Assembly (NCBI GenBank): GCA_013812985.1
Contig: JACCSN010000471.1
Location: forward strand, 1 to 8,014
From: Hyphomicrobiales bacterium
GTDB lineage: Bacteria > Pseudomonadota > Alphaproteobacteria > Rhizobiales > Afifellaceae
Direction of reading: 5' to 3'
Length of the DNA stretch: 8,014 nucleotides
Part shown: one piece after another, positions 1 to 7,685 of the stretch
Numbering within the stretch: the stretch's first letter is position 1
How the letters are laid out: the number at the start of each line of letters is the position of its first letter
Program-made: the position numbers and the translations under genes
Notes under the pieces: generated by a model
Database searches by the model: none
What the model was told of the DNA's origin: nothing
What the model saw: the letters and a program-made list of their open reading frames with translations, nothing else

Positions 1-122
1 GGCGTGAGCAGCCGTTCGAGCTTGGCCACACCGCCAGATATGAAGACAAGCCCAAGCCCGACGCGGAGCGCGAGCGCCACTTGGGATTGGACGTTAGCGG
101 ATCGTCCGTCGGAACTGAGCAT
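1..122 (-). CDS. DoxX-family membrane protein, N-terminal fragment cut by window edge
   Basis: The minus strand reads 40 complete codons from an ATG at 122 and runs off the window at base 1. The peptide starts with a short polar stretch (MLSSDGRSANVQSQ) followed by ALALRVGLGLVFISGGVAKL, which resembles the first transmembrane helix and the GG-x-x-KL turn of DoxX/DoxD-like proteins. A strong ribosome binding site (AGAAGGAA) lies about 8 bases upstream of the ATG, so the start is well supported. DoxX proteins are small four-helix inner-membrane proteins, often found in redox or stress operons; their biochemical role varies. The gene lies 36 bases after the stop of the preceding methyltransferase/anti-sigma chimera, in the same direction, so it is probably the last visible member of the leftward operon. 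Family assignment rests on one helix only. Confidence 0.72.
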   Translation of the reverse strand, partial: MLSSDGRSANVQSQVALALRVGLGLVFISGGVAKLERLLT

Positions 123-158: not shown

Positions 159-410
159 TCACGTCTGGTTTTCAACGAGGCGGGCGAACGCACGATCGGC
201 CGACACCAGTACGAAGGCGAGGTCGTGTTCACTCCAGACAGCGACGCCGTGTCCTCTGACGTATTGAACCGATGCGCGCGCACCGCTCGGCAGCGTGCGA
301 TCCGCTTCCGGTAGAGATAGGCCGCGCGCCTCCATGATGTAGATGACAGCTCGTTCTTCGCCGCGGGCGTACGTCAGCCCGATCAGCCGTCGCGTGAGCA
401 GCGAGCACAA
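159..410 (-). pseudogene. Remnant of an anti-sigma factor C-terminal (periplasmic) domain, fused in frame to the methyltransferase
   Basis: The last ~83 residues of the chimera (from LCSLLTRRLIG onward) do not fit a methyltransferase. They resemble the extracytoplasmic end of ChrR/RsiW-like anti-sigma proteins: a strand pair (LTYARGEERAVIYIME), then a YVRGHGVAVWSEHDLAFVLVS block, matching the 'G-hydrophobic-W-x-x-x-D-L-x-Y/F-hydrophobic' pattern that closes such proteins, and a final helix (ADRAFARLVENQT). The N-terminal sigma-binding half and membrane helix are absent. I infer a deletion that joined the 5' part of a methyltransferase gene to the 3' part of an anti-sigma gene, keeping the frame open. 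The following DoxX gene would then be the original neighbour of the lost anti-sigma gene. The resemblance was judged by eye. Confidence 0.45.
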
Positions 411-806
411 CCTTACGACACGCGCAAGCTCGCGCAGTGCGGGCTGTTGGAGATTTTCAGGGAGGACACAGAACAGAAAGGTGGCCACAGCCGCATCGAG
501 CGACCGGTCGGCAAAGGCGAGCTTCGTTACGTCCATTTGGCGCAACTCAACAATCGCCCCGAGTGAAATCCGGCGTCGCTCAGCCCGGGCAAGCATCGCC
601 GGGCTGATATCGATCCCGATCACCTCCGCGTGCTGCGGGTAAAAGGAAATGTTTCGCCCAGTGCCGACGCCGGCGTCCAGGATCCGACCTGAAAGTCCGT
701 CAAAAAGGCGCGGACGAATGTGACGATACCGGCCATGCTCGAACGGCAAATCGAGCAAATCGTAGAATGGGGCGATCCGCTGGTAACGGCCAAGAGCTGA
801 CGGCAT
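159..806 (-). CDS. Class I SAM-dependent methyltransferase with a foreign C-terminus (chimeric, probably non-functional)
   Basis: From the ATG at 806 (215 codons) the protein opens like a UbiE/PmtA-type methyltransferase: YQRIAPFYDLLDLPFEHGRY, then glycine-rich motif I (ILDAGVGTGRN, residues 42-52), the acidic end of strand 2 (EVIGIDIS, about 61-68), motif II/III (DRSLDAAVATFLFCVLP) and the helix ELARVVR ending near residue 132. Normal relatives continue with a PGG turn and two or three further beta strands. Here the sequence changes abruptly at about base 410 to an unrelated segment. The methyltransferase core is therefore missing its C-terminal third, and activity is doubtful. The start at 806 is chosen because family similarity begins there and a GGGA lies 8 bases upstream. 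The frame stays open to an ATG at 1019, which would add 71 residues with a hydrophobic helix. The substrate is unknown; a phospholipid or small-molecule role is only suggested by the nearby phosphatidyltransferase. Confidence 0.65.
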   Translation of the reverse strand: MPSALGRYQRIAPFYDLLDLPFEHGRYRHIRPRLFDGLSGRILDAGVGTGRNISFYPQHAEVIGIDISPAMLARAERRRISLGAIVELRQMDVTKLAFADRSLDAAVATFLFCVLPENLQQPALRELARVVRLCSLLTRRLIGLTYARGEERAVIYIMEARGLSLPEADRTLPSGARASVQYVRGHGVAVWSEHDLAFVLVSADRAFARLVENQT

Positions 807-1019
807 GTGATCATTCCCGCATTGCACCCGATCGCTCGGGTCTCGTGAGGTATTTTCCTCAGGTGCGCTCGCAGCAGACAATACCCGCAACGCTGGTATG
901 GCCCAGAGTGACAAAAGCAGCAGCCCATGCCAGGCAACCAAGACTAGGATGAGCGGCCTCCTTGAGGCGATGACGGCCGCTTGGAACCGGTGCGTCACGG
1001 CGAAGCATTTCGTAAACAT
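807..1019 (-). other. In-frame upstream extension of the methyltransferase frame with a predicted membrane helix
   Basis: The methyltransferase frame stays open upstream to an ATG at 1019, only 18 bases after the stop of the preceding lipo-like gene. The 71 extra residues begin MFTKCFAVTHRF, carry RR at 20-21, and then a hydrophobic run (PLILVLVAWHGLLLLSLWAI, about residues 22-41) followed by a polar linker. This looks like a positively charged, N-in signal anchor. Either the methyltransferase is membrane anchored, or this is the start of a different small membrane protein whose frame fused with the methyltransferase. A GGGA about 9 bases before the ATG could serve as a ribosome binding site. 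Relatives of the enzyme as I know them begin near base 806, so I keep the extension separate. Confidence 0.35.
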
Positions 1020-1037: not shown

Positions 1038-1823
1038 TTAAGCCAGTTCTCGCGCATTCGGCGTCACGAACGCCGTTGGCGAATGGGTTCTCCACCGGAT
1101 AAGGTGGTAGTCAAAGGCTCGCTCCAGAGCCGGCTTCACGATCAGGAAATAAGGCGAGATATCGAAGTCGCGCGGCACAAAGAGAGAGGAGTGGCGTATC
1201 TCCAGCATCTCCTCCCGGGCAAACCCGCTCTCTACAAACGTGATCTGAGGTAAAATCGGGTAGCGAACCGATTGGAATGCCTGGGCAATCATCCCGGAGC
1301 AGATGAGTCGTGTGGGATCCCCGGAGCCAAGCGCAATCATCCGCCGGCGCCACCTTTGCGGAACCGGCAGCGGGACGAGGTAACGGACCAAGTCTAGGAT
1401 GTTCTTAAGGTCGTATTTGAGTCCGATGCACTCGATTGCATGCCCACATACACGCTTGCACTCTTCTGGTGAAAGCCCGACTGGCCGACAAATGCGCGTA
1501 TGAAACTTGTAATATTTCGATAGCGGCGCAGCGATCACGCCATCCGCGACGGTTGCTTCTATGAGGGAATACGACTGCCCGCCCTCCGGATCAGAGGGAA
1601 CGGCTGACCCCACGAATAGTGCCGCATGGGACCAAGTGGATTGCGTCAGATACTTGATCGGGCCTGATATCCGAGTATTGCCCTCGATCAGCAGGACATC
1701 GCCGGGCCGCAGTGTCGACCGCAGCACATCCGGCTCGCTTGGAGTGAACGGCTCATAACCAGGTTCGGGCTGATCCAGGTAGTGGGCGAGCGCCTGTCCA
1801 AACGATTCGAGTATGCGGTTCAT
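1038..1823 (-). CDS. 'Lipo-like' YiiX/YebB-type permuted NlpC/P60 (papain-fold) cysteine hydrolase
   Basis: The 261-residue protein matches the rhizobial 'lipo-like' proteins of the permuted papain fold (DUF830 / C92-like). Residues 39-48 (RPGDVLLIEG) begin the core. The catalytic His is H66 in QSTWSHAALFVG, an acidic partner is E89 in SLIEATVADGV, and the nucleophile Cys is C175 in TRLICSGMIAQAF, in the permuted order His before Cys. The conserved blocks KYDLKNILDLVRYLVP, RRRMIALGSGDPTR and PRDFDISPYFLIVKP are all present. Such enzymes are thought to cleave amide or ester bonds in lipids or peptides of the cell envelope; the substrate here is unknown. I chose the ATG at 1823 because GGAT lies about 8-9 bases upstream and relatives start at this point. 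An in-frame ATG at 1862 overlaps the stop of the DUF2189 gene by one base (TGATG) and would add 13 residues. No signal peptide is obvious. The gene appears intact. Confidence 0.85.
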   Translation of the reverse strand: MNRILESFGQALAHYLDQPEPGYEPFTPSEPDVLRSTLRPGDVLLIEGNTRISGPIKYLTQSTWSHAALFVGSAVPSDPEGGQSYSLIEATVADGVIAAPLSKYYKFHTRICRPVGLSPEECKRVCGHAIECIGLKYDLKNILDLVRYLVPLPVPQRWRRRMIALGSGDPTRLICSGMIAQAFQSVRYPILPQITFVESGFAREEMLEIRHSSLFVPRDFDISPYFLIVKPALERAFDYHLIRWRTHSPTAFVTPNARELA

Positions 1824-1861
1824 GAGCTTATCCGTGCGGACGAACGTCCCAATATGCTGCA

Positions 1862-2656
1862 TCAGTGTACAACGACGCGCCGGTATAGGTGCCAAGTCGC
1901 GTGTCCAAGCACAGGCAGAACCACCGCCAGCCCAACCAAGAAGAGCATAAAACCGATCGCGAGTGCACCGGCGACGATCAGGCCCCACACGGCCATCGTG
2001 GCCGGATTCACGAGCACCACTCTCAAGGAGGTCTGAACGGCCGTGAGAGCATCGACGTTTTGGTCGAGAAGGAGGGGAAACGACACAACGCTCATAGAGA
2101 GCACCAGGACAGCGAACATCAGTCCGATGCCATTGCCCAGAAGGATCAGCATCCATCCGGATCGGGTTGTGAAGACATCCCGCGCGAACGCTACAATGGA
2201 CGGCGGTGCCTGCCGGCCAATTGTCAGTTCGTAGATGACCCATGCCGCGGTCAGCCACGCCAGAAAAATGGCCGCGAGGAGCGTGCCAAGAACAACGATG
2301 GATCCGATTGAGCAGTGGCGGACTACATTAAACGCATCGGACCAGGTTGGGTTAAAGCCCTGTTCCCGTAGCCTGCTAAGCTCATAAAATTGGATTGCTG
2401 CTATTGGCCCGATCAGGGCGAACCCAGTGACAAGCGGATAAAGGAGAGGCACAACAGAGTGTCCGACCGTAATTCTGGCCAGGACGATGCCGATGAGGGG
2501 GTAAATGAGAGCAAGAAAAAAGACATCACTTCTCTGTGCGTTGAAATCGGCGATCCCCTTTCGCAGAACTTCCTTCAGATCCGATAAGTAAATCGGTCGG
2601 ATGCTTAGACGGTCACTGCGCGTATCAGCATTTGGGCTTGTCTGTGCGTGTGTCAT
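1862..2656 (-). CDS. DUF2189 family integral membrane protein
   Basis: The 264-residue protein has a polar N-terminus (IRPIYLSDLKEVLRKGIADF), then hydrophobic segments at about residues 45-61, 68-88, 116-142, 167-193 and 219-249, that is five or six membrane helices. The FPLLLDQNVDALTAVQTSL block and the terminal GHATWHLYRRVV are hallmarks of DUF2189 proteins. Function is unknown in this family; members occur in alpha- and betaproteobacteria, often near respiratory or stress genes. The start at 2656 is supported by AAGGG 7 bases upstream; an upstream ATG at 2683 lacks such a site. It is the first gene of a leftward row: its TGA overlaps an ATG of the next frame by one base, a sign of translational coupling. 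A GTAACT-N16-CGAA promoter-like site lies about 110 bases upstream in the right direction. Confidence 0.85.
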   Translation of the reverse strand: MTHAQTSPNADTRSDRLSIRPIYLSDLKEVLRKGIADFNAQRSDVFFLALIYPLIGIVLARITVGHSVVPLLYPLVTGFALIGPIAAIQFYELSRLREQGFNPTWSDAFNVVRHCSIGSIVVLGTLLAAIFLAWLTAAWVIYELTIGRQAPPSIVAFARDVFTTRSGWMLILLGNGIGLMFAVLVLSMSVVSFPLLLDQNVDALTAVQTSLRVVLVNPATMAVWGLIVAGALAIGFMLFLVGLAVVLPVLGHATWHLYRRVVVH

Positions 2657-2763
2657 TTTGGCGCCCTTCTCGATTCGGCTCACGTCGAGCGAGCACCTGC
2701 GCGATGGTGATGCTCAATCAAGCAGGAGCAAAACGGTGCCTCGTGCGACCTGCTGCCTGTTAA

Positions 2764-2789
2764 TTCGCCACAACGCGAGAAAGAGTTAC
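2764..2789 (-). promoter_or_regulatory. Candidate SigF/EcfF-type ECF promoter facing the DUF2189 operon
   Basis: On the minus strand the -35-like box GTAACT (2789-2784) is followed after exactly 16 bases by CGAATTA (CGAA at 2767-2764). The expected transcript start, near 2757, gives a leader of about 100 bases before the DUF2189 ATG at 2656. The boxes and spacing match two other sites in this window, and match, from memory, the Caulobacter SigF pattern GTAACC-N16-CGAA. Confidence 0.6.
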
Positions 2790-2964
2790 TCTGGAGGCAA
2801 AAGAATCGACCCTGCACAAGGATAAATGAGGCGCACACCCGCCCACGACGGTGAAGACTCAAAGAGAGTGGCGGCGCGACGCGGGCTATGACAGGCGCCA
2901 CGCACCTTTCGCCCGCGTTCCGGCCGGCATTGGCAGGGCAGTCAGCCTGTTCTCGTCACCCCCT

Positions 2965-2990
2965 GTAACCTTTCGGGCGATCACCACGAA
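2965..2990 (+). promoter_or_regulatory. Candidate SigF/EcfF-type ECF promoter facing the phosphatidyltransferase
   Basis: The plus strand reads GTAACC (2965-2970), 16 bases, then CGAA (2987-2990) followed by TTA. This is an exact match to the SigF-type pattern as I recall it. It points rightward toward the small frame at 3061 and the CDP-alcohol phosphatidyltransferase at 3275, and stands back to back with the leftward site at 2764-2789, about 175 bases apart. The leader to 3275 would be about 275 bases. Confidence 0.6.
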
Positions 2991-3060
2991 TTATCCGCAG
3001 GTAAGCGATTCGGATGCTCCGTGCCGGCCCAAAGGCAGATCCGCGAACCGTGGAGGGAGC

Positions 3061-3258
3061 TTGAAATCCATTTCTCGCGCCATAGCAGTCGCCATCCGCG
3101 CCGGTGGCTCCTGCGCGGTCCGTGCCGCGCGCCGGAGCCGACTTTCACGGCCGAGAACGGTTAGATGCCCGGAAACCCTCAATTCCGTTTCGGAGATACG
3201 GGCCGCGCGGGCGTTCGATGCAGGGCGTTCTCGCCACACACAATCCAGGATCCGATAA
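3061..3258 (+). CDS. Possible small ORF (65 aa), perhaps a degraded exported peptide
   Basis: A TTG at 3061 is preceded by a strong purine-rich site (GGAGGGA, 3052-3058) and lies about 70 bases downstream of the rightward promoter-like motif. The peptide begins MKSISRAIAVAI, like the start of a signal peptide, but then turns arginine-rich (RAGGSCAVRAARRSR) and shows no further hydrophobic core or recognised domain. The stop at 3258 is 16 bases before the ATG of the phosphatidyltransferase. It could be a frameshifted remnant of a small secreted protein, a leader peptide, or chance. SigF-type regulons I know of include small exported DUF2282 proteins, which is why it is listed; nothing in the sequence proves the link. 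Confidence 0.25.
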   Translation: MKSISRAIAVAIRAGGSCAVRAARRSRLSRPRTVRCPETLNSVSEIRAARAFDAGRSRHTQSRIR

Positions 3259-3274
3259 ACTCGAAGGCGCTGGC

Positions 3275-3970
3275 ATGATCGACAATGTACTCCGAAATCG
3301 CTTCAGAGTGCCTATCGACAACGCGGGCATTTGGTTGGCTCGGCGGAGCGTGACTGCTACCGGGCTCACCGGCATCGGTTTCGCCGCCGGCCTAGGCGGT
3401 TGCGTTGCACTCACGCAGCAGTTTTATGGAATTGCCCTTGTCTGTCTCGTCCTGAACCGTCTCGCTGATCTCTTCGACGGAGCCGTCGCGCGTGCCACTG
3501 TCGTAACGGATTTCGGTGGCTTTTTGGATATTGTAACAGACTTACTGATCTATTCAGGGTACGTCCTGGCCTTTGCGGTCGGGCGGCCGGAAAATGCGAT
3601 TGCCGCAGCTGTCCTCATTTATACGTTTCTCGGCACTGGGACGACCTTTTTAGCCGCCGCGATCATCGCAGCGAAGCGGAACATCACGCGGGAGCCAAGC
3701 ACTCGGAAAAGTTTCTTCTACAACGCCGCTTTGGCGGAGGGGACGGAGTCAACGATTTATCTCGCATTGATCTGCATAGTGCCCGACTACTTCGCAGTGA
3801 TGTCTTACATTTTTGCCGGTATCGGCTTTGCATCGCTTATCGGGCATTTCACATGGGCAAGCCAGATGGCGATGTCGGCGTGGCGCGTGCCGTCCTCGCG
3901 CTCGCGCGCCTTTCCGAAGACCAGCGTCCAGCGCGCGTCGCGGTCCTTCTGGCGGAGCTTCGCGGGATGA
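3275..3970 (+). CDS. CDP-alcohol phosphatidyltransferase family membrane protein, 3' end replaced by IS sequence
   Basis: These enzymes transfer a phosphatidyl group from a CDP-linked lipid to an alcohol, inside the cytoplasmic membrane. The signature is clear: DLFDGAVAR, then GGFLDIVTD (about residues 67-90), giving the D-x-x-D-G-x-x-A-R...G-x-x-x-D-x-x-x-D metal and CDP site with all four aspartates. Hydrophobic helices flank it, and the later KSFFYNAALAEGTES and YLALICIVPDYF blocks match the ~200-residue rhizobial subfamily. The alcohol acceptor cannot be told. The start at 3275 has AAGG 7 bases upstream; longer in-frame starts give non-homologous residues. About 197 native residues reach base ~3865. 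The last ~34 codons to the stop at 3970 are antisense of the IS5-type transposase, so the native stop is lost. Since the catalytic part is complete, the protein may still work, with a foreign basic tail. Confidence 0.85.
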   Translation: MIDNVLRNRFRVPIDNAGIWLARRSVTATGLTGIGFAAGLGGCVALTQQFYGIALVCLVLNRLADLFDGAVARATVVTDFGGFLDIVTDLLIYSGYVLAFAVGRPENAIAAAVLIYTFLGTGTTFLAAAIIAAKRNITREPSTRKSFFYNAALAEGTESTIYLALICIVPDYFAVMSYIFAGIGFASLIGHFTWASQMAMSAWRVPSSRSRAFPKTSVQRASRSFWRSFAG

Positions 3971-4494
3971 TCCTTCCAGTCCTGCGGGATGCGACCCGCC
4001 TTGATGTCCGCCTTCTCCGTGTCTTTGTTCCTCTGCTTCGGTGCCGAGACGAGGCTCGCGTCGACGATCTGGCCCGACATCGGGATGTACCCGGCGTCTC
4101 GGATCGCGCGGTCGAAGCGGGCGAACAGCGCCTCGATCGCGCCGGCCTTTGTCAGCCGCTCGCGGAATGCCCAGATCGTCTTGGCGTCCGGCACCTTGTC
4201 GGTCAGGCCCAGTCCCAGAAAGCGCATGAAGGAGAGCCGGTCGTTGATCAGGAACTCGGCGCGGTCGTCGGAGAGGTTGTTCTGTGCCTGGATCACCAGG
4301 ATCTTGAACATCATGACCGAGTCGAAGGGCGGGCGACCACCCTTCGCCCCGTCGCCGTAGTTCAGGGCCGCCTCCAGATCGGGCCGGAACATCTCGAACT
4401 CCACCACCGCCGAAAACGCCTCGAGCTGGTCGCCGATGTCGCTCAGTCGCCGAAGCCGCTCGTCCACGTCGAACAATCCGGGATCTCTCGCCAT
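3865..4494 (-). pseudogene. IS5-type transposase, N-terminal ~210 residues (3' half deleted)
   Basis: The minus-strand frame from the ATG at 4494 gives MARDPGLFDVDERL..., a typical IS5-family N-terminus with the KGGRPPFDSVMMFKILVIQ and LGLTDKVPDAKTIWAFRERL blocks and the first DDE aspartate at D145 (QIVDASLVSAPKQRN). A good ribosome binding site (GGGGAGG) lies upstream. The sequence stops matching after HADIAI at base ~3865, where it runs into the end of the phosphatidyltransferase gene; relatives have about 100 more residues including the second D and the E. The frame stays open for 19 junk residues to 3805. The transposase is therefore catalytically dead. Confidence 0.85.
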
Positions 4495-4546
4495 GCTTGC
4501 CTCCCCGTGAAGCGCAGGCTGAGTGAATCATGAAGCCACTGAGCTG
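3865..4546 (-). mobile_element. IS5-family insertion sequence, 5' fragment
   Basis: The element carries the promoter-side end of an IS5-type IS plus two thirds of its transposase. Bases 4517-4546 upstream of the transposase start (TTCATGATTCACTC on the minus strand) resemble the end region of this IS group, so the terminus is probably near 4540-4546. The other terminal repeat has been deleted together with the transposase 3' part and the stop codon of the target gene, so no target-site duplication can be assigned. The right border is an estimate. Confidence 0.65.
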
Positions 4547-4561
4547 GCGAGGTTAATCGAG

Positions 4562-4835
4562 GTGCCCAGCTGCGGGCGATGCAGGTCACGCCGCACGTGG
4601 CGCGGAACACAAACGGCCGACGATCGGCAATCGACGGCCGCACCACAAGGCCGGCTACGGAGCGAGCCAACGCATCCGCAAGCGCATCGAAGAGGTCTTC
4701 GGCTGGATCAAGACGGTGGCCGGCCAGGCGAAGACGAAATTCCGTGGCGTCGCCCGCGTCGGCTTCTCCTTCACTTTTGCCGCCGCTGCCTACAATCTGG
4801 TGCGCCTGCCGAAGCTCCTGGAGGCGCCGACATGA
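4562..4835 (+). pseudogene. IS1182/IS5-like transposase, C-terminal fragment with a frameshift
   Basis: The plus strand encodes the end of a DDE transposase in two frames. First comes LRAMQVTPHVARNTNGRRS followed by AIDGRTTR (to base 4650). Then, after a net one-base loss at about 4651-4652, comes GYGASQRIRKRIEEVFGW followed by IKTVAGQAKTKFRGVARVG (to 4709 and beyond) and FAAAAYNLVRLPKLLEAPT, ending with TGA at 4833-4835. The R-x-x-E-x-x-F-G-W and AAYNLVRLPKL motifs are typical of the C-terminus of these transposases. The N-terminal half is absent. It faces the opposite way to the IS5 fragment, which ends just to its left, and the two do not look like parts of one protein. This is a second, older insertion scar. 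Confidence 0.75.
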
Positions 4836-5147
4836 GCAACCGGTCCGAATGTCGGCTCATCGGCCGTTTCCGAGACGTAAGGCTATTTGCGAGGTCCCAC
4901 CCATCCGTCGTGTTTTGATCTGCGTCGGGAGCATTTTTGCATAGGACTGGCGCTCGTCCCTTCATCACGAATCTTTGAGATGCGCGATCCGGTCACAGCG
5001 GGACAGTCGGCCTCACCGAACATTGATTTCGCCGTGGGAACTCCTAACGCGTACACCCGGCGCATGGGTACCATAATCAATCTCAGCAATGGGGCGGCGG
5101 CTGGCGGCAGCAAAGAAGCCGGTACATGCCATCAGCGGATCGATCCG

Positions 5148-5708
5148 ATGCAAGTGCAGGACCGACATCTCGCCAATCTCATGCAATCGGCGCAGGACGG
5201 TGATAGCGCCGCCTATGCACAGCTGCTGGGCGAACTCACCCCCTTGCTCAGACGGACGGTACGGCGTCGACACGGATTTCTCCCGCCGCAGGAGGTAGAA
5301 GATATCATCCAGGAGATCTTGTTGTCACTTCATACAGCGCGCGCCACCTACGATCCAGGGCACCTCTTCTTTCCTTGGCTGATGGCAATCGCCCGAAACC
5401 GCACGGTGGACGCTTTGAGACGTCGTATTCGACGCTCGACGCATGAGATCGCAGTCGAGCAGTACGATGTAACCTTTCCCAGCGCGGATACGAATAGCCC
5501 TGTGGATGTCTACCGCGACCCGGAGGCGCTCAGACAAGCCATCGGTCGTTTGCCACAAGGACAACGCAAGGCAGTTGAGATGCTGAAGCTCCGTGAAATG
5601 TCGCTGAAGGAGGCCGCCGCGGCCACTGGGATGAGCATCAGCGCACTCAAGGTGGCCGTGCATCGGGCAATGAAAAGCCTTCACGCTGCATTGAGCCACG
5701 AGATTTAA
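5148..5708 (+). CDS. ECF-type RNA polymerase sigma factor (SigF/EcfF-like, paired with NrsF)
   Basis: The 186-residue protein has the two-domain ECF layout. Sigma region 2 spans about residues 20-96, with VEDIIQEILLSLH as the core-binding segment and FPWLMAIARNRTVDALRR as the -10 recognition helix. Region 4 spans about 128-182, with LPQGQRKAVEMLKLREMSL and a helix-turn-helix (EAAAATGMSISALKVAVHRA) for the -35. It directs transcription of a small stress regulon and is held by the anti-sigma protein encoded 1 base downstream. The ATG at 5148 is chosen because similarity and usual family length begin there, with GCGGA 8 bases upstream. In-frame ATGs at 5064 and further up are possible but code for low-complexity residues. 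The upstream region to the IS scar shows no copy of the GTAAC-N16-CGAA motif, so typical autoregulation is not visible. Assignment to the SigF group relies on the NrsF partner and local motifs. Confidence 0.88.
   Translation: MQVQDRHLANLMQSAQDGDSAAYAQLLGELTPLLRRTVRRRHGFLPPQEVEDIIQEILLSLHTARATYDPGHLFFPWLMAIARNRTVDALRRRIRRSTHEIAVEQYDVTFPSADTNSPVDVYRDPEALRQAIGRLPQGQRKAVEMLKLREMSLKEAAAATGMSISALKVAVHRAMKSLHAALSHEI
5469..5494 (+). promoter_or_regulatory. SigF-type promoter motif inside the sigma factor gene, facing nrsF
   Basis: Within codons 108-116 of the sigma gene the plus strand reads GTAACC (5469-5474), 16 bases, then CGAAT (CGAA at 5491-5494). It matches the intergenic site at 2965-2990 in both boxes, in spacing and in the TTTC that opens the spacer. 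It lies about 215 bases before the anti-sigma start and could give the sigma factor a way to raise its own inhibitor separately. It may also be a coincidence of coding sequence. Confidence 0.35.
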
Positions 5709-5709
5709 G

Positions 5710-6369
5710 TTGGAAACGAACGAGCTCGTCTCTGGTCTGACCTCCAGGGCCGTTCCGGTCAGGCGCCTTTCGCCCCCCTGGGTCCGAACGGCGTCGTGGC
5801 TTGCAATCGCGCTTCCCGCGGTCGCACTTATCGTCCTGGTCATGTCGCCGCGGGACGATCTGCCCGCGAAGCTGACCGAATCGCGGTTCGTGATTGAGCA
5901 GGCGGCTGCATTGGCCACGGCTATAACCGCCGCCATGGCGGCGTTCTGCATGATCATCCCCGGCCAGAGTCGGTGGATGGTAGCACTTCCCGTAGCTCCC
6001 CTCACGTTCTGGCTGGGAAGCCTGGGCCAAGGCTGCCTGAGCAGCTGGCTTCGATTGGGACTAGATGGTCTGCGAATCTATCCCGACTTGATCTGCCTTC
6101 CGTCAATCGCTCTGGTCGGTTCCGTCCCGGCGGTGACGATGCTTGTGATGCTTCGGCGTGGCGCGCCACTCGCGCCGCGGTTGACCGTAGCGCTGGGGGG
6201 GCTCGCCGCTGCGGCTCTCGGAAACTTCGGCTTGCGGCTATTCCATTATCAGGATGCCAGTCTCATGGTTCTGATCTGGCAATTCGGCAGTGTCGCGCTG
6301 TTTTCGGCGCTCGCCAGCTGGAGCGGCAAGCATGTTCTTCAGTGGCGGCACATAAGAGCAGCGCACTGA
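5710..6369 (+). CDS. nrsF: NrsF/DUF1109-family six-helix anti-sigma factor
   Basis: The 219-residue protein has six hydrophobic segments (about residues 27-46, 64-84, 90-108, 124-147, 159-176, 186-204), as in NrsF (Caulobacter) and OsrA (Bradyrhizobium). These bind an ECF sigma factor at the inner membrane and release it on oxidative or metal stress. The block CLPSIALVGSVPAVTMLVML then RRGAPLAPRL is typical. C129 sits where the first of two cysteines recalled as conserved lies. The second, usually in an H-C-x-D/E-D-S context, is here tyrosine (FHYQDAS, Y180). Two further cysteines, C80 and C109, are present. The start is a TTG at 5710, one base after the sigma stop, with only a weak ribosome binding site, so translation is probably coupled to the sigma gene. 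No nearby ATG fits. Confidence 0.88.
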   Translation: METNELVSGLTSRAVPVRRLSPPWVRTASWLAIALPAVALIVLVMSPRDDLPAKLTESRFVIEQAAALATAITAAMAAFCMIIPGQSRWMVALPVAPLTFWLGSLGQGCLSSWLRLGLDGLRIYPDLICLPSIALVGSVPAVTMLVMLRRGAPLAPRLTVALGGLAAAALGNFGLRLFHYQDASLMVLIWQFGSVALFSALASWSGKHVLQWRHIRAAH

Positions 6370-6968
6370 AACTGCCCATGTCCTCCAGCGCGAACAAGGT
6401 CAAGAAGGCCAGAACGAGGTCCGGCGAAACCGCTCGCTTAGGGCGACTGCACAACAGAAAGCTCTTTAGCGGCTTGCAACAGAGTTACTTAAATTCGCTA
6501 CATGAACTTACGTCCGGTAAACTGATTATCGTTGTGTACGGGGCGCCGATCGAAGCCGTCGCCGGCGGGCCAGCGACCTTGTCCCGGCTCTTCTGTTATC
6601 GCGGCCTTTATTGCTTGGCTTGTTAAGAGACAGCTCAATTACCGGAACCGTGCCCTTGAGCACCTGGTGGCCGTGAAGCTCAAGGTGCGTGCGGTCTCGC
6701 CGGACGAAAAGGATCACATAGACGTACCAGAAGAGCGGATGGACGATCTACGAAGTCTTTGGCCGGCGATGGGCCCTACGGAGGAAAGCGCCCGCAAATG
6801 GGGGAAATGTGCCGTTCTCGCGGCCGACAATGGAGGCTCTGAGAGATGGCCTCAGGTTCATCGTCGAGAACGCTTGCCCGATTCGCGGCCACCCCGCCGC
6901 CTGAGAGCCCCGACGAACGGAAACCACATTCCCGCACTCGCATCCACAGGGCGGAACGGAGGTCTGTA
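6370..6968 (+). other. About 600 bases between nrsF and the L,D-transpeptidase without a recognised gene
   Basis: Two frames give weak signals. An ATG at 6378, 8 bases after the nrsF stop, opens 82 residues to 6626 (MSSSANKVKKARTRSG..., with a short hydrophobic patch GKLIIVVYGAPIEAV). It has no clear ribosome binding site. A second frame from 6532 to 6969 holds SSVIAAFIAWLVKRQLNYRN and a charged stretch (KDHIDVPEERMDDLRSLWP) that reads like protein, then degenerates into proline/arginine-rich text. The two could be pieces of one decayed small membrane protein joined by a frameshift near 6590. I recognise neither, and see no clear terminator or promoter here. Confidence 0.3.
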
Positions 6969-7685
6969 ATGGCCGAAACGAAAGAACCGCCGCTGGTAAG
7001 CCTGCCGCGGCGAAACTTGCTGGTTGGCTTCGCCGGCCTTGCACTCTCTGGGTGCGTATCGGGACCACTCATGCCGCCGACCTTAGCAGCGTACCCACCG
7101 CCGCCCCGATCCCTCCGCCCGACCATGTACGAGGCGATGCCGGAGGAGCGCTTCCCCATTCCAGCCGTAGACGTTGAGAAGGTCGACGAGAGGTTCTGGC
7201 GAACCATCGTGGATGATCCGACGGGCGAAGCTTCCGGAACCCTGGTGGTCGACACGCCCGCGAAGTACCTTTATTTCACAATGGCCGACGGCTCCGCCAT
7301 CCGTTACGGCATTGGCGTCGGTCGGGAAGGGTTTGCCTGGTCCGGCCGAGCTAAAGTCCAGTACAAGCGCAAGTGGCCCCGTTGGACGCCGCCGGACGAT
7401 ATGGTGGCACGGCAGCCCGAACTTCAGCCATACTCCATCGCCAACGGCGGCATGGATCCAGGTCTCCAGAACCCTCTTGGCGCCCGCGCTCTATACATCT
7501 TTCAGGACGGAAGGGACACGCTCTATCGCCTGCACGGAACTCCCGAGGCTTCGTCCATCGGTCGGGCGGTCTCCTCGGGTTGCATCCGCCTACTTAACCA
7601 GGATGTGATCGACCTATACGAGCGCGTTCCAGATGGTACGCGGATCAAGGTCATTCCTGACCCGAGCCTCCGGGCAGCTTTATAA
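6969..7685 (+). CDS. L,D-transpeptidase (YkuD domain) lipoprotein
   Basis: The 238-residue protein begins with a twin-arginine-like lipoprotein signal: LPRRNLLVGFAGLALSGC, with lipobox LSGC and the lipidated cysteine at residue 29. A proline-rich linker follows (YPPPPRSLRPT), then the YkuD domain from about residue 88 (GTLVVDTPAKYLYF) to 229. The catalytic motif is complete: H189 in LHGTPEASSIG and SSGCIR with nucleophile C205 and R207. Such enzymes form 3-3 peptidoglycan cross-links or attach outer-membrane proteins to peptidoglycan; which applies cannot be told. The start at 6969 has GGAGG 6 bases upstream and places the signal peptide at the N-terminus; an in-frame ATG at 6846 would bury it. 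It follows the sigma/anti-sigma pair on the same strand after ~600 bases, so co-transcription is uncertain. The gene is intact, with length normal for rhizobial members. Confidence 0.9.
   Translation: MAETKEPPLVSLPRRNLLVGFAGLALSGCVSGPLMPPTLAAYPPPPRSLRPTMYEAMPEERFPIPAVDVEKVDERFWRTIVDDPTGEASGTLVVDTPAKYLYFTMADGSAIRYGIGVGREGFAWSGRAKVQYKRKWPRWTPPDDMVARQPELQPYSIANGGMDPGLQNPLGARALYIFQDGRDTLYRLHGTPEASSIGRAVSSGCIRLLNQDVIDLYERVPDGTRIKVIPDPSLRAAL

Follow-up and report, generated by a model that had tools for sequence, protein, structure and literature searches.

The locus described here raises the question of what purpose is served by three copies of one promoter-like sequence, two of them lying between genes and the third inside the gene of a sigma factor. 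It occupies positions 1 to 8,014 of contig JACCSN010000471.1 from a Hyphomicrobiales bacterium, a stretch of 8,014 nucleotides (nt) that appears to make up the entire contig and is referred to as the window, and it includes an extracytoplasmic function (ECF) sigma factor gene followed by a gene for an anti-sigma protein of the NrsF type. A first-pass annotation made from the sequence alone had proposed that the three sites define a compact local regulon. The best explanation of our results, to which we assign a probability of roughly 0.65, is that all three are promoters of the ECF16-like sigma factor, that sites 1 and 2 were recruited to their genes in this lineage, and that site 3 is an embedded promoter of nrsF which would create a negative feedback.

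Three promoter-like sites and an ECF16-like gene pair

The sites and the gene pair are as follows.

2763–2789, minus strand: site 1, GTAACT-N16-CGAAT, an exact match that faces the DUF2189 gene
2965–2991, plus strand: site 2, GTAACC-N16-CGAAT, an exact match, with GTAACCTTT, which is found in some related genomes
5469–5495, plus strand: site 3, GTAACC-N16-CGAAT, embedded in the sigma gene at codons V-T-F-x5-N of the linker between regions 2 and 4
5148–5708, plus strand: ECF sigma factor gene (PF04542, PF08281; 1460 homologues)
5710–6369, plus strand: NrsF-domain anti-sigma gene (PF06532, E=1.7e-25, 90.5 bits against a cut-off of 26.8)

The pattern GTAACY-N16-CGAAT occurs exactly three times in the window, so that the shared boxes and fixed spacing described in the first-pass annotation were borne out, and the relaxed pattern GTAACN-N16-CGAA returned the same three sites. 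Its estimate of a chance expectation well under one also held: 200 dinucleotide shuffles gave a mean of 0.02 matches to the relaxed pattern and a maximum of 1, and none of the 200 contained three copies. A scan of the window with up to one mismatch to GTAACC-N(15–17)-CGAA found nothing beyond the three sites. The likeness to the Caulobacter SigF promoter noted in the first-pass annotation agrees with the excerpts available of three papers, which give GTAACC-N16-CGAA for that promoter (PMC3511200), (T/C)GTAAC-N17-CGAA for ECF16 (PMC8315932) and tGTAACc-N16-CGAA as the consensus of ECF group 16 (PMC3420878). The results indicate that the three sites are real, beyond chance, and equal to the published ECF16/SigF promoter type. 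An extension to GTAACYTTT is present at sites 2 and 3 and absent at site 1 (GTAACTCTTT).

Sites 1 and 2 form an outward-pointing pair, 175 bp apart, between the DUF2189 gene and a gene for a cytidine diphosphate (CDP)-alcohol phosphatidyltransferase. From the CGAA end of site 1 it is 80 nt to a GTG start of DUF2189 at 2683 and 107 nt to an ATG at 2656, and site 2 faces the transferase gene at a distance of 284 nt from its ATG. Site 3 is located 237 nt before the sigma stop codon and 215 nt upstream of nrsF. The sigma/anti-sigma pair had been correctly recognized as such, but site 3 is itself part of the sigma open reading frame (5148–5708), so that the stated distance of 2 kb does not apply to it.

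The sigma protein has 186 residues if translated from 5148, but the reading frame extends upstream of this position and offers further ATGs at 5064 and 4980. It consists of regions 2 and 4 only (PF04542 and PF08281, overlapping PF07638 and PF04545), with no region 3 family. The anti-sigma protein scored 21.1 bits against the cut-off of 300 for the NCBIfam equivalog AntiSigF_NrsF, and since it falls below that cut-off it is best classed as a distant member rather than a Caulobacter-type orthologue; its residues 109 and 129 fall in cysteine columns conserved in 21 and 26, respectively, of 26 aligned relatives. A plus-strand search from 4430 to the sigma start (5148), allowing up to two mismatches, found no upstream autoregulatory site, and the remnant of an insertion sequence (IS) ends ~300 bases upstream of that start. 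Together, these features point to an ECF16-like (SigF/NrsF-type) pair with GTAAC-N17-CGAA targets present, whose reading by this sigma factor is predicted as part of the explanation given above.

A conserved element within the sigma gene

Site 3 was compared among relatives by a codon-by-codon alignment of sigma genes. The 145 loci used, some of them overlapping, yielded 142 usable genes, 24 of which were dropped as their last 240 bases were identical to those of another gene, leaving 118 distinct sequences. Relatives carry GNA-ACY-TTY and NCG-AAY at the matching codons, with a box spacing of exactly 16 bases. The element GNAACY-N16-CGAA was found 215–275 nt before the stop codon in 27 of the 118 genes, including 25 of the 41 closest to the window's gene. 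All 27 copies are in frame 0 and lie 225–267 nt before the stop, with a single copy elsewhere (in locus L287) and none on the reverse strand. Permutation of synonymous codons within each gene, which preserves both protein and codon usage, gave a mean of 3.6 elements and a maximum of 10 in 1000 rounds against the 27 observed. The excess persisted when the genes were thinned to <60% protein identity (18 of 73 with the element; null mean 2.2, maximum 8 in 2000 rounds) or at 70% identity (21 of 87; null mean 2.6, maximum 11). The possibility that site 3 is a chance match was dropped after these alignment and permutation results.

The element corresponds to residues 108–116 of the sigma protein, between regions 2 and 4 by Pfam bounds, and its end is 197–240 nt from nrsF (median 215 in the 26 genes measured). 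Residues able to encode it ([EVAG]T-x5-[APST][NK]) were matched 28 times in this stretch of the gene, and 27 of the matches have the DNA element, the exception being a distant gene (L280). At the boxes the codon is GAA in 23 of 23 cases for glutamate (52% GAA overall in these genes), GTA in three of three for valine (8% overall) and NCG in 27 of 27, but since the genes counted here had been selected by the presence of the element, it is the permutation test that constitutes the evidence. Protein homologues not chosen by their DNA fit xTF-x5-N in 113 of 120 cases, although T, one of seven residues after it, and N or K were already demanded by the search pattern. In those 113 proteins the residue before T is E (88), V (24) or G (1) and the residue before N is T (70), A (32), P (10) or S (1), in line with what GNA and NCG codons would produce.

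Eight of 19 named plasmid loci, from Alpha- and Betaproteobacteria, have the element, in two forms:

GTAAC form: plasmid loci of Paraburkholderia fungorum and Burkholderia glumae
GAAAC form: Cupriavidus sp. KK10, C. necator N-1, Nitrobacter hamburgensis, Paraburkholderia sp. PGU19, P. phenoliruptrix and B. contaminans

The spread over two classes rests on these named loci, with Nitrobacter the alphaproteobacterium and the other carriers betaproteobacteria. A proposal suggested by P. fungorum and B. glumae, that the embedded site reads GTAAC when target genes follow nrsF, was not upheld in locus L107. The usual upstream site was detected in only one of 25 scorable genes with the element versus 33 of 91 without it (Fisher p 0.001, uncorrected for kinship).

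Sites 1 and 2 and their targets in related genomes

The remaining features of the window are listed below.

1862–2683, minus strand: DUF2189 membrane protein, first gene behind site 1 (PF09955, E=5.7e-37)
1038–1862, minus strand: permuted papain-like amidase of the peptidase C92 family (YaeF/YiiX), start not settled (PF05708, E=4.9e-7)
159–1019, minus strand: class I S-adenosylmethionine methyltransferase (PF13649, E=2.3e-18)
3–122, minus strand: possible DoxX gene start, truncated where the contig ends (PF07681, E=0.015, below the cut-off)
3275–3970, plus strand: CDP-alcohol phosphatidyltransferase (PF01066; close relatives have 199 residues and match from the ATG at 3275)
3866–4494, minus strand: 5' half of an IS5-type transposase, truncated (PF05598, DUF772; 74% DNA identity to an IS5-family transposase)
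4579–4840, plus strand: 3' half of an IS5-type transposase, assigned by reading, with no Pfam family found
6932–7647, plus strand: L,D-transpeptidase gene, after the anti-sigma gene (78% DNA identity to a Jiella pelagia plasmid gene)

Sites 1 and 2 probably serve the DUF2189 operon and the transferase gene, and the compact regulon proposed in the first-pass annotation is supported in part. Its gene set is not conserved as a regulon, and site 3 is intragenic and most likely acts for nrsF. A check for the site at DUF2189 orthologues found none within 1.5 kb in 82 fetched DUF2189 loci, a set that leaves out the closest protein relatives P0001 (98%) and P0002 (61%); one of the loci (L128) has the exact boxes but a 15-base spacer. 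The transferase gene, present in 79 genomes, had a site within 1.5 kb in one of 30 fetched loci (L180, where it is 475 bp upstream of the match). Both genes were thereby ruled out as conserved SigF targets. As nearly all of these loci are without the site, sites 1 and 2 give the impression of good promoters set before unusual genes in this lineage, and the DUF2189/transferase regulon looks like a lineage-specific extension. DoxX had also been counted among the local genes, and what the window holds of it is a 40-residue fragment with a sub-threshold Pfam match, the only candidate here for a gene of the bufferin/Msr/YedY-type SigF regulon.

Two observations are weak hints of an older linkage of these genes to sigma genes. 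The transferase gene is ~1.5 kb from an ECF16-type sigma gene, in one order, in three of the 79 genomes (L203, L204 and L205), and a DUF2189 relative (P0033) and a sigma relative (P0125) are on equally sized contigs of 183,734 bases.

The promoter type also occurs near such pairs in related genomes. GTAAC-N17-CGAA was present within ~1.5 kb in 21 of 30 fetched NrsF loci, drawn from a phylum-wide sample in which 80 of 398 genomes had an NrsF match, and in 11 of 30 loci fetched for the closest sigma genes. The GTAACYTTT extension was seen at seven of 16 sites in 20 larger regions from relatives, and GTAACYTT-N14-CGAA had 27 matches in the 18 related genomes searched (11 of them with one), compared to nine for the reversed control. 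By reading, the genes behind these sites encode DUF2282/DUF692-type bufferins, thioredoxin/CcdA-like pairs, proteins with cysteine-rich NPCxxK repeats, MsrA, and YedY-like and DUF3179-like proteins, although some sites fall within long frames and may be chance matches. No DUF2189 or transferase gene was seen in the translations read behind these sites. In annotated named records the pair adjoins DUF2282-DUF692-DNA-binding-DoxX genes, an arrangement known for Buf1 clusters from the part of PMC12452194 available. Proteins with cysteine-rich NPCGAK/NPCAPK repeats were found just behind SigF-type sites in L099, L102, L149, L153, L166 and L170 (the last in a shifted frame), and are possible metal-binding peptides or bufferin-like precursors. 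On three plasmids (L324 of P. fungorum, L325 of B. glumae and L342 of B. contaminans) the ECF16 pair and bufferin operon adjoin mer genes.

Within the window, the two opposite IS5 halves (3866–4840) lie upstream of the sigma gene and carry an inverted repeat of 9 bases close to the outer ends (at 3872 and 4825), and they separate sites 1 and 2 from that gene. The transferase is complete except that its last residues are swapped for an IS-derived tail from ~3865. Searches of Pfam and the plasmid collection gave no convincing relative for the last 99 residues of the methyltransferase (159–458, minus strand), a tail that is possibly broken or fused, by deletion or frameshift; kinship with the methyltransferase beside the Nitrobacter pair was considered and gave no match. 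Other plasmid matches of the window, among those listed, were mostly to the IS transposase.

Alternative explanations

Several observations weigh against interpreting the three sites as promoters of this one sigma factor. The element is absent from 91 of the 118 sigma genes, 16 of which are among the 41 closest, and from 11 of the 19 named loci (two Pantoea, Afipia, P. largidicola, C. metallidurans, Skermanella, three Rhizobium, Methylobacterium bullatum and Sphingobium). No GTAAC-type site of any kind occurs in the ~350 nt upstream of 20 of the 25 scorable genes with the element; among genes without it, 39 of 91 lack such a site upstream in either direction. The copy in the window reads GTAAC, whereas 23 of the 27 copies read GAAAC, one base removed. 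GAAACYTT-N14-CGAA had 46 matches in 25 related genomes, 18 of them in the sigma gene. Of the 28 outside that gene, six are variants of a single sequence, and as the reversed control gave 14 matches, it is not clear that GAAAC serves as a general target form, and it could be weak. Codon conservation by itself supports the element only moderately: among the 158 columns of an unselected set of 41 genes, box column 115 ranks fourth, box column 109 eighth and spacer column 111 first (median ratio 1.21), but box column 108 is outside the top eight and five of those eight are outside the element. A second set, of 35 genes, was picked for holding the element and is circular for columns 108, 109 and 115. 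Sites 1 and 2 lack conservation at the corresponding genes of other genomes, and the IS remnants leave room for mis-assembly between these sites and the sigma gene.

The xTF-x5-N residues could also matter to the protein, in which case site 3 would reflect selection on a conserved motif of the linker, ETF/VTF-x5-N, in contact with RNA polymerase or NrsF, with the promoter-like DNA as a by-product. The linker touches the polymerase in ECF holoenzymes, residues T109, F110 and N116 show good conservation across the clade, and in the unselected set the box columns have a high codon conservation that they share with other columns. We nevertheless regard this explanation as unlikely, as the residues vary within the DNA pattern (E/V/A/G, A/T/P/S and N/K) while the bases are kept, the codons needed for the element appear in 27 of the 28 compatible matches where the null gives ~3.6, the 16-base spacing is exact and the boxes are identical to those of the extragenic sites. 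Less likely still is the idea that all three sites, site 3 included, belong to one conserved local SigF regulon: their consensus match and clustering, the transferase genes near ECF16-type sigma genes and the equally sized contigs with P0033 and P0125 would fit it, but the site is missing from nearly all DUF2189 and transferase loci, site 3 is intragenic, and the sites in relatives precede other genes. The two opposite IS5 halves raise a further alternative, that sites 1 and 2 are real but come from the region of another sigma factor, two loci having been joined at the IS copy, either as an assembly chimera or by an IS-mediated rearrangement. The left and right proteins indeed have near-identical relatives on separate short contigs (P0001, 2266 bp; P0121, 1575 bp). 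Such a junction seems improbable given that the promoter type is identical on both sides, that an ECF16-type sigma gene adjoins this transferase in three other genomes, and that guanine-cytosine content is steady at 0.54–0.65 in 400-base blocks.

Proposed function and significance

Three promoters of the ECF16-like sigma factor thus remain our preferred interpretation, in which we infer promoter activity, sigma dependence and the direction of feedback from the sequences, positions, conservation and codon bias observed. Stress would act on NrsF and free the sigma factor, a release that has been shown for OsrA in the part of PMC3420878 available. Free sigma would then transcribe its targets and, from site 3 ~215 nt upstream, nrsF alone, with no extra sigma made, and the new NrsF would recapture sigma as a negative feedback. 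Sites 1 and 2 would be divergent promoters, one for a DUF2189-C92-methyltransferase-(DoxX) operon and the other for the phosphatidyltransferase. The basal sigma-anti-sigma transcript would be supplied by a housekeeping promoter, such as that reported for rpoQ-rsqA of C. metallidurans in an excerpt of PMC10304878.

We extend this proposal, with confidence only slightly better than even, to an ECF16-like branch of Alpha- and Betaproteobacteria in which the DNA would dictate the linker residues and the sigma factor's own site would drive the anti-sigma gene in place of the upstream promoter, and in some species the bufferin operon too. In P. fungorum and B. glumae the target operon is behind nrsF on the same strand, and because the embedded site is the sole such site on the coding strand from the sigma start to the end of the bufferin operon, it may also start that operon.

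The promoter type was already known, and site 3 appears to be of more interest than the regulon claim, which is at best lineage-specific. If the proposal is correct, a promoter and a protein linker evolve as one sequence across two proteobacterial classes, and the usual positive autoregulation of ECF sigma/anti-sigma operons becomes negative feedback in this branch. It would also predict a start site that goes unnoticed in operon annotation and in motif scans restricted to upstream regions, and may bear on the copper-related bufferin operons of the two species in which no other site was found on the operon strand.

Comparison with known systems

No report of an embedded promoter in ECF16 sigma genes was found in titles and abstract openings of the open-licence PMC literature on SigF/NrsF, ECF16/DUF1109, anti-sigma promoters and bufferins, and the available part of PMC3420878 contains neither "internal promoter" nor "within the coding". 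A search of the same open-licence literature for DUF2189 with "sigma factor" returned a single paper, on mycobacterial comparative genomics.

The closest well-described system is SigF-NrsF (ECF16) of Caulobacter crescentus, which, according to an excerpt of PMC3511200, shares with the window the sigma and NrsF pair and the GTAACC-N16-CGAA promoter; its regulon includes a DoxX gene, of which the window has a possible fragment. The two differ in that sigF has its own upstream promoter, whereas the window has no site upstream of the sigma gene and one inside it, and in that the Caulobacter regulon consists of DUF2282/DUF692/DUF2063/DoxX and YedY genes. EcfF-OsrA of Bradyrhizobium japonicum and BcrS-AbcS of Brucella, both ECF16, are alike in promoter consensus and in an NrsF/DUF1109 anti-sigma protein with two conserved cysteines (excerpts of PMC3420878 and PMC8315932). 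The conserved cysteines 109 and 129 of the window's protein are candidate counterparts of OsrA C129 and C179, and ecfF differs in being autoregulated from an upstream promoter (PMC3420878, in part). For comparison with gigPABT-rpoQ-rsqA of Cupriavidus metallidurans, the one ECF16-like locus fetched from that species (L330, which may or may not be rpoQ) was examined: it carries sites upstream and in divergent orientation, and the embedded element is absent.

The arrangement proposed for site 3 has its counterpart in SigH-RshA of Corynebacterium glutamicum, where sigH has four housekeeping promoters and a SigH-dependent promoter, PrshA, which its authors locate within the coding sequence of sigH, drives the anti-sigma gene alone (PMC3489674, in part). 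That system belongs to another ECF family and another phylum and has a different promoter sequence, and it was shown by experiment in one species, whereas our proposal draws on sequence constraint across Alpha- and Betaproteobacteria. By analogy, PrshA is a precedent for a sigma-embedded anti-sigma promoter of the kind that we predict in the ECF16-like branch.

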